This document shows positions 36,716 to 55,940 of a DNA stretch of 55,940 bases, one piece after another. The notes below the pieces were generated by a model that had not been told where the DNA came from, made no database searches, and saw only the letters and a program-made list of their open reading frames with translations. Location: positions 1 to 55,940 of the forward strand of contig JAVJQK010000132.1 in NCBI GenBank assembly GCA_040218145.1. Reading direction: 5' to 3'. Every line of letters begins with the position of its first letter. Positions within the stretch are counted from its first letter, which is position 1. Both the position numbers and the translations under genes were made by a program. This DNA is from Sandaracinaceae bacterium (GTDB lineage Bacteria > Myxococcota_A > Polyangia > Polyangiales > Sandaracinaceae).

Positions 36716-36818
36716 GCCGCGTAGATTCCCACGACTCCCCGCGCCTGTTCAATCGCTCCCGACGCACGCCCACGGCGAGCACGCCGAAGTCGCCTTCCCA
36801 AGCACGTCCCCCAGCAGC

Positions 36819-36974
36819 GGCGACGAGCGAAGCGAGGTCGCCCTTCCCAGGACCCGAGCAGCGGCGACGAGCCCAGCGAAGTCGCCTTCCCCAGGACGCG
36901 AGCAGCGGCGACGAGCGAAGCGAGGTCGCCCTCCCCAGGACCCGAGCAGCGGCGACGAGCGAAGCGAGGTCGCC
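36819..36974. repeat. 44-bp tandem repeat, four copies
   Basis: Units start at 36819, 36863, 36907 and 36951, exactly 44 bp apart. Each holds a 24-bp imperfect palindrome with GGCGAC and GTCGCC arms, followed by a near-identical 20-bp linker (containing CCCAGGAC and CGAGCAG). A related 26-bp palindrome recurs at 37067-37092. Linkers are not unique, so this is not a CRISPR. Confidence 0.85.
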
Positions 36975-37117
36975 TTCCCCCGAGCAGGTCCCCCGCGGCA
37001 GCGGGCGGCCAGCTTTCGCGAAGCGAAAGCGCGAGCCGCGTGGCTCACGCGCGGAGCGCGGGACCCGGGCGACGAGCGAAGCGAAGTCGCCCGACTCGGG
37101 AGGGGGGGCCCCATGGA

Positions 37118-37179
37118 GCCGGCGCAGCGATGTTCGCGCAGGGTGCGGAGCACCCGAAGTCGAACATCGTTGCGCCGGC
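37118..37179. repeat. 62-bp cruciform-like inverted repeat with an apical hairpin
   Basis: The left arm 37118-37136 and right arm 37161-37179 are 19 bp long and complementary except at one position. Inside them GGGTGC (37141-37146) and GCACCC (37150-37155) form a second 6-bp stem. This module takes the place of the short second hairpin seen in loci B and C. Confidence 0.85.
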
Positions 37180-37189
37180 GCAGTGGGGG

Positions 37190-37212
37190 GGAGGGGCTTG
37201 AAAAGCCCCTCC
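37190..37212 (-). repeat. GGAGGG hairpin (module H1) at locus A
   Basis: Ten-base arms GGAGGGGCTT (37190-37199) and AAGCCCCTCC (37203-37212), 3-base loop. On the minus strand it begins 9 bases after the LysM gene stop, and the stop plus next bases read TGAGTTTG, exactly as after rpoZ. Confidence 0.85.
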
Positions 37213-37221
37213 CAAACAAAC

Positions 37222-38337
37222 TCAGTATCCGCGCCGCATCTCGGCGCGGTCGCCGACCTGCACCTCGCGCGTCGAGCGCGTGATCATGACCGTCGAGGAG
37301 CTCGGCCGCGTGTGCACGACGATCGCCTCCGCGACGATCTCCGCCGGGTACTCCTCGGGCTCGTTCGGCGTCTGCACCGAGGGCCCGAGCGTGTCGGGGC
37401 TGGCGTTGAGGCTGTCGCGCCAACGGTCTCCCACGTCGATGATGAAGAAGCGGTTCCCGACCGCGACGCCCTCCTCGCGGCCCACGGGGAGGAAGACGAT
37501 CTGCTGCTCACCGAGCAACAGCCGCGGATGCAGCGTGGCCACCACGCGGCTCTCGATGTCACGGTCCGCGACGCGCGGCGGCACCATGTCGAAGCGCCGC
37601 GGCATCGCCGCCACGCGCATGCCGCGCTCCACCGGGTCGAGCGCCTCCACGATCGTGCCGCGCGCGGTGCGTCGGTCGCGATCGTAGCTCTCCACGCGCA
37701 CCGTGCCGAAGATGCGAACCAGCTCGCCCTCCTCGCCCTCGAAGCGCTCGTCGGCTTCGATCGGCCGGAAGATGGTCCACTCGCCGCTGGGCGTCTGATC
37801 GTAGTCGTCGTCGAACTCGATGTAGATCGGGTCGAAGGGCGCCAGCAGCATGTGGTCCTCGGGGGATCCCACCACGACCCCGGAGGAGTCGAGGGCGTCT
37901 CGATCGAGGAAACCCTCCTGCCGCAGAAACACCGTGCCGCTCTGCATCGTGCGCGCGGGCGACACCACGCGGGCGCCCGAGCCGTCGTCGATGACCACGC
38001 CCTCCCCCGGAGGCAAGAGCCGCAGCGTGTCGAGCGGGTAGATCCAGTGCGGGTTCGTGATCTCGGGGTTGTAGGACCACACGCGCGGCCACTCCCAGGG
38101 GTTCCCGTAGAAGCGCCCCGTGACGTCCCAGAGCGTGTCGCCCCGTCGCACGGTGTAGGTCTGCGGGATCATCCGGCTGCGCACGTTGCCGCTGATGCGC
38201 ACGCCCTCTCGGTTGCGCGCGGCCGCCTCGAGGCTCTGCGGCTGGTCCTCGTACACGCCCGTCTGGGCGTCGGCCACGGCGGGCGCGCTCCCGAGGGCGA
38301 AGGCGATCAGAAGGGTCCGAACGACGCGCTTGCTCAT
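37222..38337 (-). CDS. Exported LysM-domain protein
   Basis: A 371-residue exported protein with signal peptide MSKRVVRTLLIAFALGSAPA (cleavage after VADA likely). One LysM domain (about 58-110) reads YTVRRGDTLWDVTGRFYGNP followed by WEWPRVWSYNPEITNPHW, typical of peptidoglycan-binding LysM. The remaining 250 residues are beta-rich with no catalytic motif seen (RIFGTVRVESYDRD, VVATLHPRLLLGEQQIVFL). Similar LysM proteins with long C-termini occur in myxobacterial envelopes. Its start overlaps the TPR lipoprotein stop by 4 bp, so the two are coupled. A composite repeat element begins at its stop codon. Confidence 0.85.
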   Translation of the reverse strand: MSKRVVRTLLIAFALGSAPAVADAQTGVYEDQPQSLEAAARNREGVRISGNVRSRMIPQTYTVRRGDTLWDVTGRFYGNPWEWPRVWSYNPEITNPHWIYPLDTLRLLPPGEGVVIDDGSGARVVSPARTMQSGTVFLRQEGFLDRDALDSSGVVVGSPEDHMLLAPFDPIYIEFDDDYDQTPSGEWTIFRPIEADERFEGEEGELVRIFGTVRVESYDRDRRTARGTIVEALDPVERGMRVAAMPRRFDMVPPRVADRDIESRVVATLHPRLLLGEQQIVFLPVGREEGVAVGNRFFIIDVGDRWRDSLNASPDTLGPSVQTPNEPEEYPAEIVAEAIVVHTRPSSSTVMITRSTREVQVGDRAEMRRGY

Positions 38338-51171: not shown

Positions 51172-51417
51172 ATGGCCCGCGTAACCGTCGAAGACTGCCT
51201 CGAGCACGAAGAGAACCGCTTCGCACTGGTCATCCTGGCCGCCAAGCGCTGCCGGCAGATCATGAAGGGCGCCCCCGCCCTCGTGCACAGCAAGAACCGC
51301 GCGGCCGTCACGGCGCTCCGCGAGATCGCGGACAAGAAGGTCTACTGGAACCGCCCCGTGCGCGAAGCGGTGGACGAGTTCATCGCCGAGCAGAAGAGCG
51401 TCGACGAGCTGCGCTGA
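51172..51417 (+). CDS. rpoZ: RNA polymerase omega subunit
   Basis: An 81-residue omega subunit that helps assemble RNA polymerase. The start [20 protein letters not shown] and the conserved middle [15 protein letters not shown] are family features, with VTALREIAD after them. Its length fits (about 70-90). The gene has its own promoter and ribosome site. Often the neighbour is gmk or spoT, but here a palindromic repeat array starts right after its stop. Confidence 0.95.
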
Positions 51418-51424
51418 GTTTGCT

Positions 51425-51448
51425 GGAGGGTCTGAACGCAGACCCTCC
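51425..51448 (+). repeat. GGAGGG hairpin (module H1), first copy at locus B
   Basis: Arms GGAGGGTCTG (51425-51434) and CAGACCCTCC (51439-51448) pair perfectly over 10 bp around AACG. It begins 7 bases after the rpoZ stop, which together with the following bases reads TGAGTTTG. Confidence 0.9.
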
Positions 51449-51710
51449 CCCCATTGGGCGAAGCGCCAATGGGGCCCCCCTCCCAACTACGGCGCGTCGC
51501 GCGCTCCGCGCGCTTGGGCGCCGACCCCAGCGGCGGGGCGCTGGGGCCCCCGCGACTCGCGCTTTCGCTGCGCGAAAGCTGGCCGCCCGCTGCCGCGGGG
51601 ACCCGCTCGGCGCGCGCTCCGCGCGCTTGGGCGCCGACCCCAGCGGCGGGGCGCTGGGGCCCCCGCGGCTCGCGCTTTCGCTGCGCGAAAGCTGGCCGCC
51701 GTTTCTTGTT

Positions 51711-51734
51711 GGAGGGTCTGAACGCAGACCCTCC
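51711..51734 (+). repeat. GGAGGG hairpin (module H1), second copy at locus B
   Basis: Same arms and loop as the first copy (51711-51720 and 51725-51734), preceded by the T-rich GTTTCTTGTT that joins the partial unit to the last unit. Confidence 0.9.
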
Positions 51735-51884
51735 CCCATTGGGCGAAGCGCCAATGGGGCCCCCCTCCCCACCTACGGCGGGTCGCGCGCTCCGCGCGCT
51801 TTGCCGCCGACCCCAGCGCGGGGCGCTGGGGCCCCCGCGGCTCGCGCTTTCGCTGCGCGAAAGCTGGCCGCCCGCTGCCGCGGG

Positions 51885-53761: not shown

Positions 53762-55712
<1,951 letters not shown>

Positions 55713-55746: not shown

Positions 55747-55785
55747 CACCGAGTCTCCGTGAGGAGGCTCGGTGTTTTCTTTTTT
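55747..55785 (+). terminator. Intrinsic terminator of groESL
   Basis: A 12-bp stem (55747-55758 with 55763-55774; one G-T pair), GTGA loop and a T-tract TTTTCTTTTTT. Clear Rho-independent terminator. Confidence 0.93.
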
Positions 55786-55809
55786 GGAGGGCCTGAACGC
55801 AGGCCCTCC
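55786..55809 (+). repeat. GGAGGG hairpin (module H1) at locus C
   Basis: Arms GGAGGGCCTG (55786-55795) and CAGGCCCTCC (55800-55809), loop AACG. Compared with locus B the T-A pair at arm position 7 is C-G, a paired change. It starts directly at the end of the groESL terminator T-tract. Confidence 0.9.
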
Positions 55810-55940
55810 CCCCAGTGGGAAAAGCGCCCATGGGGCCCCCCACCCGACTACGGCGATTCGCGCGCTCCGCGCGCTCTGTCGCCGACCCCAGCGGCGGGGC
55901 GCTGGGGCCCCCGCGGCTCGCGCTTTTTTTTGGGGAGGGC
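55786..55940 (+). repeat. Composite palindromic repeat, locus C (3' of groEL), cut by the right edge
   Basis: It repeats the locus B order: the GGAGGG hairpin, a degenerate second hairpin, GGGGCCCCCC, GCGCGCTCCGCGCGC, CCCCAGCG/CGCTGGGG, then CCGCGGCTCGCGC. There the unit is broken off into a T-run followed by GGGGAGGGC, the probable start of another unit. No gene is in it. Confidence 0.85.

Follow-up and report, generated by a model that had tools for sequence, protein, structure and literature searches.

Palindromic repeats placed at gene ends: a probable family of mobile elements in the class Polyangia

Three gaps in a contig of a Sandaracinaceae bacterium (36760-37221, 51418-51884 and 55786-55940, hereafter loci A, B and C) appear to be built from the same series of hairpins, which raises the question of what these sequences are. 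The window, by which we mean the whole stretch of 55,940 nucleotides that was analysed, is one complete contig (C132) of an 11.06-Mb genome in 148 contigs, which belongs to the same species as the MAG MED-G138. A preliminary description had proposed that the three loci share a fixed order of hairpin modules, all 3' of a gene and pointing the same way relative to it, and that they might represent an undescribed element of the REP/BIME type. Inspection of the sequence showed all three loci to be present, with locus C running off the contig end, and the neighbouring genes to be those for a LysM protein (last position 37222), for rpoZ (51417) and for groEL (55712), each with the element 3' and in one orientation. 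The features are as follows.

36760..36980 (approx.), minus strand: locus A, tandem type II HP3 modules (GGCGACGAGCGAAGCGAGGTCGCC); by sequence, with partial matches at 36819-36843 and 36907-36931
36980..37220, minus strand: locus A, type II unit, with HP1 at 37187-37212, 9 nt past the stop of the LysM gene; by sequence, BLAST and pattern
37222..38337, minus strand: LysM-domain protein gene, host of locus A; PF01476, E=2.8e-4
51172..51417, plus strand: rpoZ, RNA polymerase omega subunit, host of locus B; TIGR00690, E=2e-13, and PF01192, E=4e-15; TGA at 51415-51417
51418..51424, plus strand: locus B unit 1, 5' leader adjoining the rpoZ stop; by sequence, stop-to-HP1 distance 7 nt
51425..51448, plus strand: locus B unit 1, HP1 (GGAGGGTCTG-AACG-CAGACCCTCC); by sequence, helix covarying across genomes
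51449..51474, plus strand: locus B unit 1, HP2 (CCCCATTGG..CCAATGGGG), with one conserved bulge; by sequence and folding
51475..51484, plus strand: locus B unit 1, C-rich tail CCCCCCTCCC; by sequence, kept between genomes
51490..51523, plus strand: locus B unit 1, HP3, a CGGCGC/GCGCCG outer stem enclosing GCGCGC-TCC-GCGCGC; by sequence, unit 3 folding alike
51525..51546, plus strand: locus B unit 1, HP4 (CCCCAGCG..CGCTGGGG), then CCCC; by sequence and folding
51552..51599, plus strand: locus B unit 1, HP5 (GCTTTCGC..GCGAAAGC, GGC/GCC outer stem) and CCCGC/GCGGG end; by sequence and folding, boundaries approximate
51611..51700, plus strand: locus B partial unit, HP3-HP5 without HP1 and HP2; 97% identity to query 76-164
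51709..51884, plus strand: locus B unit 3, full, with HP1 at 51711-51734; by BLAST and folding
54081..55712, plus strand: groEL, host of locus C; TIGR02348, 862 bits
55747..55785, plus strand: groEL terminator-like hairpin CACCGAG..CTCGGTG with T-tract; by sequence, the consensus scan did not report this hairpin
55784..55926, plus strand: locus C unit, cut by the contig end, with HP1 at 55786-55809; by sequence and BLAST

Locus B, directly 3' of rpoZ, comprised two full units and one partial unit, as had been described, and the full units (HP1 at 51425-51448 and 51711-51734) were 95% identical across 175 nt by BLAST. The element at locus C begins where the T-tract of the groEL terminator-like hairpin ends, and its distal end carries a run of eight T and the beginning of a further GGGGAGGG at 55920-55940. 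The inclusion of locus A stood only in part: it retains the hairpin order and represents a sister subfamily, in which HP1 is GGAGGGGCTTTTCAAGCCCCTCC, HP2 is much longer and HP3 differs, but 36760-37221 is not one unit, as its distal portion (about 36760-36980) consists of the tandem type II HP3 modules.

The core shared by these units reads GGAGGG-x-loop-x'-CCCTCC, then CCCC-y-loop-y'-GGGG, then a C-rich tail. Full units are about 115-175 nt long and consist of a leader, HP1-HP2, the C-rich tail (CCCCCWCCC) and subfamily-specific hairpins. HP1 and HP2 are two adjacent strong hairpins in which GGAGGG:CCCTCC and CCCC:GGGG are constant and the variable arms are specific to the genome, the constancy of GGAGGG being in part a product of the search pattern. 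The 5' leader is short and often overlaps the stop codon; it is (GC)TGAGYTTGCG in Sandaracinus, TAG/TGA-GTTTGTTG in type II and T-rich in type I. Across genomes, GGGG is followed by CCCCC[A/T/G]CCC and a loosely common RANACG, and the hairpins 3' of the core vary by subfamily. Even so, ACE_MYX11 (Sandaracinaceae) kept the order HP3, CCCC-HP4-GGGG, HP5 despite a wholly different sequence. The full unit was predicted to fold into 5 or 6 hairpins at -108 kcal/mol (z = -4.1 relative to dinucleotide shuffles). No U-tract followed the hairpins of the element, which has a C-rich tail after HP2 and a T-rich stretch before HP1, and a scan of loci B and C found no more terminator-like sites than in shuffled sequence. 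Rfam covariance models gave no match at the gathering score in the window, nor any for eight loci when E values up to 1 were allowed; neither terminal inverted repeats nor a clear target duplication was seen in the elements, and no ORF was identified inside them.

When searched against the whole genome, the unit at 51709-51884 returned at least 99 BLAST matches (40 of 236 candidate stretches scored), so that copies extend beyond the window; they also occur in other Polyangia, and neither their position nor their orientation was random. The pattern GGAGGG-N3..20-CCCTCCCCC matched 79 times in this source genome, compared with 2 matches for the reversed control; the recurrence of the unit is not chance. 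Three subfamilies were distinguished: type I (51709-51884 as query), with at least about 46 loci by count of the listed places, type II (the locus A unit as query), with roughly 20 loci, and type III (GGAGGGGCTGTCCCAGCCCCTCC), with four. These copy counts are lower bounds because the assembly breaks inside these repeats, many matches lying at contig ends. The type III copies (L063, L083, L085 and L092, and L308 in G006) have an additional 5' part, which at L092 and L308 opens with CTAGTACT; at L308, in the second Sandaracinus, 175 nt have been inserted at a gene boundary that is otherwise conserved.

For comparison across genomes we used the core pattern GGAGGG-x-CCCTCCCCC-y-GGGGCCCCC. It occurred 58 times in the source genome and 20 times in MED-G138, and among other Sandaracinaceae in ACE_MYX11 (31), S. 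amylolyticus (12), the second Sandaracinus (17) and one more genome (6). There were a further 87 copies in the MAG IP29b_bin.34, 14 in one Polyangiaceae MAG, 30 in the Kofleriaceae MAG Gw_SlAct_bin_340 and 20 in its congener, and the reversed control pattern gave 0 in all core-carrying genomes counted. Close relatives of several carrier genomes had no copies, and the distribution within the Polyangia, a class with members in soil and in the sea, was scattered. Among the matches listed in a GTDB scan, the core was also present in Plesiocystis, Enhygromyxa and Paraliomyxa; matches in Roseiflexus, Thermus, Amycolatopsis, Rubrobacter and the Myxococcota MAG JASJCT had neither the tail nor the arm design and look like chance. 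Our literature search found no report of such an element in myxobacteria, and two REP surveys did not contain the myxobacterial names that we looked for, in agreement with the suggestion that the element was undescribed.

The arm sequences are peculiar to each genome, and they are compensated. When 26 different HP1 sequences that have the same length were compared, 98.5% of cells paired and double changes occurred at all four variable pairs; the covariation score was 0.264, whereas shuffling gave 0.070 (0/500) and sliding the partners gave 0.065 at most. In 57 HP1 variants the inner pairs were 93% Watson-Crick, compared with 56% after shuffling, and an apparent A.C excess in that analysis was partly due to the bulge in the Sandaracinus HP2. 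G.U pairs were rare, with 8 on the sense and 33 on the antisense strand, one genome contributing about half of the antisense pairs. A test of G.U pairs versus A.C mismatches gave no excess of G.U on the sense (mRNA) strand, such as would be expected if selection saw the mRNA fold; G.U pairs being rare and not enriched on that strand, selection on the mRNA fold is therefore not demonstrated. The same covariation would be expected if the hairpin were recognised as DNA or if replication errors corrected the palindrome. We did not use the antisense excess as a sign of antisense RNA, given its strong contribution from a single genome and the part that the HP2 bulge played in the A.C excess.

To evaluate placement, we called genes by codon usage, the caller having been trained on these same loci. 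Among elements with a called upstream neighbour, excluding IP29b, MED-G138 and chance hits, 107 of 126 lay 3' of a gene on the same strand, 76 of them within 16 nt of its stop codon. In the two Sandaracinus genomes, 24 of 30 element sites begin no more than 12 nt past a stop, a position for which 3.4% of intergenic strand-positions qualify (nominal binomial 3e-30). All 13 S. amylolyticus elements lie 3' of a gene, 11 of them at 2-7 nt and most beginning 6-7 nt past the stop, and gene ends likewise hosted 16 of 17 elements in the second Sandaracinus, 13/13 and 9/9 in two f15 genomes, and 9/9 in ACE_MYX11. In the source genome 20 of 47 elements were within 16 nt of a stop, compared with 4.1% expected, and 12 of the 47 lay 5' of a divergent gene according to the gene caller, which counts against a gene-end rule; IP29b, too, showed a weaker stop preference, with a sizeable share of its copies away from stops. 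Some copies of the source genome follow other kinds of gene end: those at L059 and L061 are 12-13 nt 3' of tRNA genes, and others follow the T-tracts of terminator-like hairpins (at 55785 in the window and, by eye, at L086). Stop-codon placement of these elements is much tighter than that of E. coli REPs, about 11% of which are within 15 nt of a stop (PMC12306157).

The preliminary description had inferred a mobile element from the order, orientation and near-identity of the units, and comparison of sister species bears this out. For 26 Sandaracinus sites, one concatenated C-terminal query led to the orthologous gene ends of the sister genome, whose flanks we then read: 19 sites were empty, 3 had an unrelated palindromic repeat, 3 a reduced or degenerate copy, and 1 an intact copy in both species. 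In the empty alleles of L312, L314, L319 and L321 a terminator-like hairpin comes shortly after the stop, and in the filled allele the element lies between stop and hairpin. For 4 of the 19 empty sites, the filled and the empty allele end the gene with different stop codons (for example TGA to TAG, L313 and L315), the native TGA at L311 and L314 is followed by a complete leader GCTGAGYTTKCG bearing its own TGA, and at the 6-7 nt sites the leader overlaps the stop. These observations suggest an insertion junction at CTGA, with no clear target duplication visible; the left end of the element is close to the stop and the right end is variable. Elements follow both rpoZ and a SulP-type gene in the genus of the source genome and in S. 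amylolyticus, and neither gene has one in the second Sandaracinus, suggesting recurrent use of some sites, or loss, and some empty sites could be deletions and not sites that were never occupied. The orthologs of L364, L368 and L355 lack the element and have other palindromic repeats at the same stop-codon position; several unrelated-looking hairpin families may be using gene ends in Sandaracinus.

Once in place, the units appear to grow and shrink locally. At least five genomes have a truncated copy (leader and HP1, or leader, HP1 and HP2) directly 5' of a full unit, with the break within the 3' arm of HP1 or just past HP2 (CC|G). The repeated piece at L330 of S. amylolyticus spans the gene's own stop codon and includes GCTGAGCTTCC, and two strains of one species differ by extra 5' pieces (L043/L303). 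Such 5' partial duplication fits template switching at hairpins, and decay proceeds by loss of whole palindromes (orthologs of L322, L331 and L332). Within HP1 itself, the loop and arm are duplicated at L213 and L233 of ACE_MYX11 (GCTGTTCCAGCGTTCCAGC), a further sign of slippage at the hairpin.

We conclude, with a probability of roughly 70%, that these sequences form a non-autonomous, REP/MITE-like family of mobile palindromic elements of the class Polyangia that is placed at gene ends. Copies spread to new loci, as the empty orthologous sites show, and are found at gene ends in the sense orientation, mostly within 16 nt past a stop or 12-13 nt past a tRNA gene; under this model, insertions would be made, or survive, there. 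The cassette lies upstream of the native terminator-like hairpin where one exists. Insertion may start at a CTGA or stop-like junction, and selection on coding regions and promoters, possibly together with target choice, would leave the survivors at stop codons. Units multiply locally on their 5' side as truncated copies and shrink by deleting internal palindromes. The enzyme that moves the element would presumably be supplied in trans and belong to none of the four classes tested: RAYT/Y1, RVT_1, IntI and Y2 were each missing from at least one element-rich genome, and none tracks the element. Mobilisation of the IS91/Y2 kind was rejected on the absence of the Y2 transposase (PF04986) from G000, G001, G034, G255 and others. 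More tentatively, we can imagine a Polyangia mobile system that recognises gene ends, be it a stop or the 3' end of a tRNA, by way of a CTGA-like site or by coupling to transcription or translation, and places sense-oriented structured cassettes without a known transposase class, the variable hairpin arms drifting as a lineage-specific, compensated identity tag; this extended version is possible, though we would not expect it to hold in full.

Could the likeness of the copies reflect function, not movement? A selected 3'-end element, acting as a terminator or mRNA stabiliser and homogenised by gene conversion, would explain the position and orientation fixed relative to stops, the strong folding, and the elements with different arms that rpoZ and the SulP-type gene bear in two genera. 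We consider it unlikely, since the 19 of 26 empty sites occur within one genus, four of them already have a terminator-like hairpin that stays downstream, the hairpins lack a U-tract, terminator-like sites in loci B and C are at the shuffled level, and IP29b has copies away from stops. Slightly less probable is a retroelement origin, in which the template for reverse transcription at gene ends would be an antisense RNA that has an A-rich end and whose 3' end lies at HP1, the partial 5'-side units being 5'-truncated copies. It could account for the T-rich or poly-T 5' border of variable length in the source genome, the retention of the HP1 end in all partial 5'-side units and the antisense-strand G.U excess, but the PF00078 reverse transcriptase is absent from ACE_MYX11 (31 copies) and IP29b (87 copies), and the leader next to the gene is repeated in partial units (GCTGAGCTTCC at L330), the pattern expected of local slippage.

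Movement of REP or REPIN elements by a RAYT (a Y1 tyrosine transposase) is an obvious candidate for high-copy extragenic palindromes with complementary mutations as in REPs (PMC2817692), and the source genome has a single RAYT-like gene. It is nonetheless very improbable here, and a RAYT-dependent REP is largely refuted, there being no correlation of RAYT with the element. PF01797 is absent in both Sandaracinus genomes (complete or near-complete), the Kofleriaceae genome, G002, G067, G042 and G181, all of which carry the element; the source genome's own RAYT locus lacks the GGAGGG family hairpin; of about 197 cores, 2 have GTAG, of the GT(A/G)G head, in the 6 nt 5' to HP1, and CTAC 3' of the core is found mainly in one genome; and tandem copies run head to tail, not as inverted pairs. 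Integron attC sites are species-specific hairpin sites directly behind ORFs. An attC-like recombination site would resemble these elements in lying behind ORFs and in keeping its structure while differing in sequence between species, but IntI (TIGR02249 over cut-off) was found only in the element-free G180, G182 and G175 and in none of the carriers, and the elements are scattered at single genes (rpoZ, groEL, an ATP synthase gene) and not in cassette arrays, which leaves this origin largely refuted and the least credible of all. The only strong RAYT-like Y1 transposase gene in the source genome (L122, G000:C113:223527-226889) has no GGAGGG hairpin nearby, and its flank holds CAACCTAGCGTCCCCATG (or a near-identical copy) twice, perhaps the RAYT's own REP-like sequence. 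G435, an element-free genome of the same class, has 34 Y1 transposase family matches, which looks like an expansion of the IS200/IS605 type.

How does a mobile family placed at gene ends compare with known repeats? ERIC and NEMIS/Correia are MITE-like elements that are non-autonomous, intergenic and able to form RNA hairpins; unlike these, our elements have neither terminal inverted repeats nor clear target duplication and are strictly oriented to genes. They resemble the REPs, BIMEs and REPINs of E. coli, Pseudomonas and Stenotrophomonas in being short extragenic palindromes in tens to hundreds of copies that form modular mosaics, and REPs in their complementary stem changes and in the presence of some REPs within 15 nt of stops (PMC2817692, PMC12306157). 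In contrast to REPs and REPINs, they occur without RAYT in several hosts, lack the GTAG head, are arranged head to tail, have 2-5 hairpins per unit over up to 175 nt, and in several hosts lie mostly at stops. The REP/BIME label therefore held in the loose sense of repetitive, extragenic and palindromic sequences, but not as regards RAYT, the GTAG head and inverted pairing. The mycobacterial MIRUs are likewise small mobile repeats, and they insert in a manner tied to a translation signal with little harm to the host gene (PMC12548453, citing Supply 1997), whereas MIRUs carry an ORF and couple to the start codon and our elements are hairpins behind the stop. What is new here, if the mobile reading is right, is a class-specific, RAYT-independent, stop-codon-placed family of mobile palindromic elements.

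In mRNA, the cassette should form a stack of very stable hairpins, beginning in Sandaracinus typically 6-7 nt past the stop. By analogy with E. coli REPs, the element probably provides the mRNA with a structured 3' end, most likely shielding it from exonucleases and/or slowing the release of ribosomes, and it does not take the place of the terminator. Translation is reported to fall and ribosomes to stall where an E. coli REP lies fewer than 16 nt from a stop (PMC12306157), and REPs have been proposed as mRNA stabilisers (PMC3733652). On the mobile reading, dispersed palindromic elements can spread and persist without RAYT, near-exclusively behind stops in some hosts, so that REP-like function at mRNA 3' ends would become separable from RAYT-driven movement, and the filled and empty orthologous sites of the two Sandaracinus genomes offer natural experiments in which mRNA stability and the termination of translation can be compared. 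In practice these elements break assemblies (many contigs of the source genome end in one) and can confuse the annotation of 3' regions in Myxococcota. At one further locus of the source genome, L090 (G000:C126:108200-114900), at least 16 tRNA genes are clustered, and elements occur there in both orientations; one of these elements lies about 12 nt after a probable tRNA-His that ARAGORN did not call.
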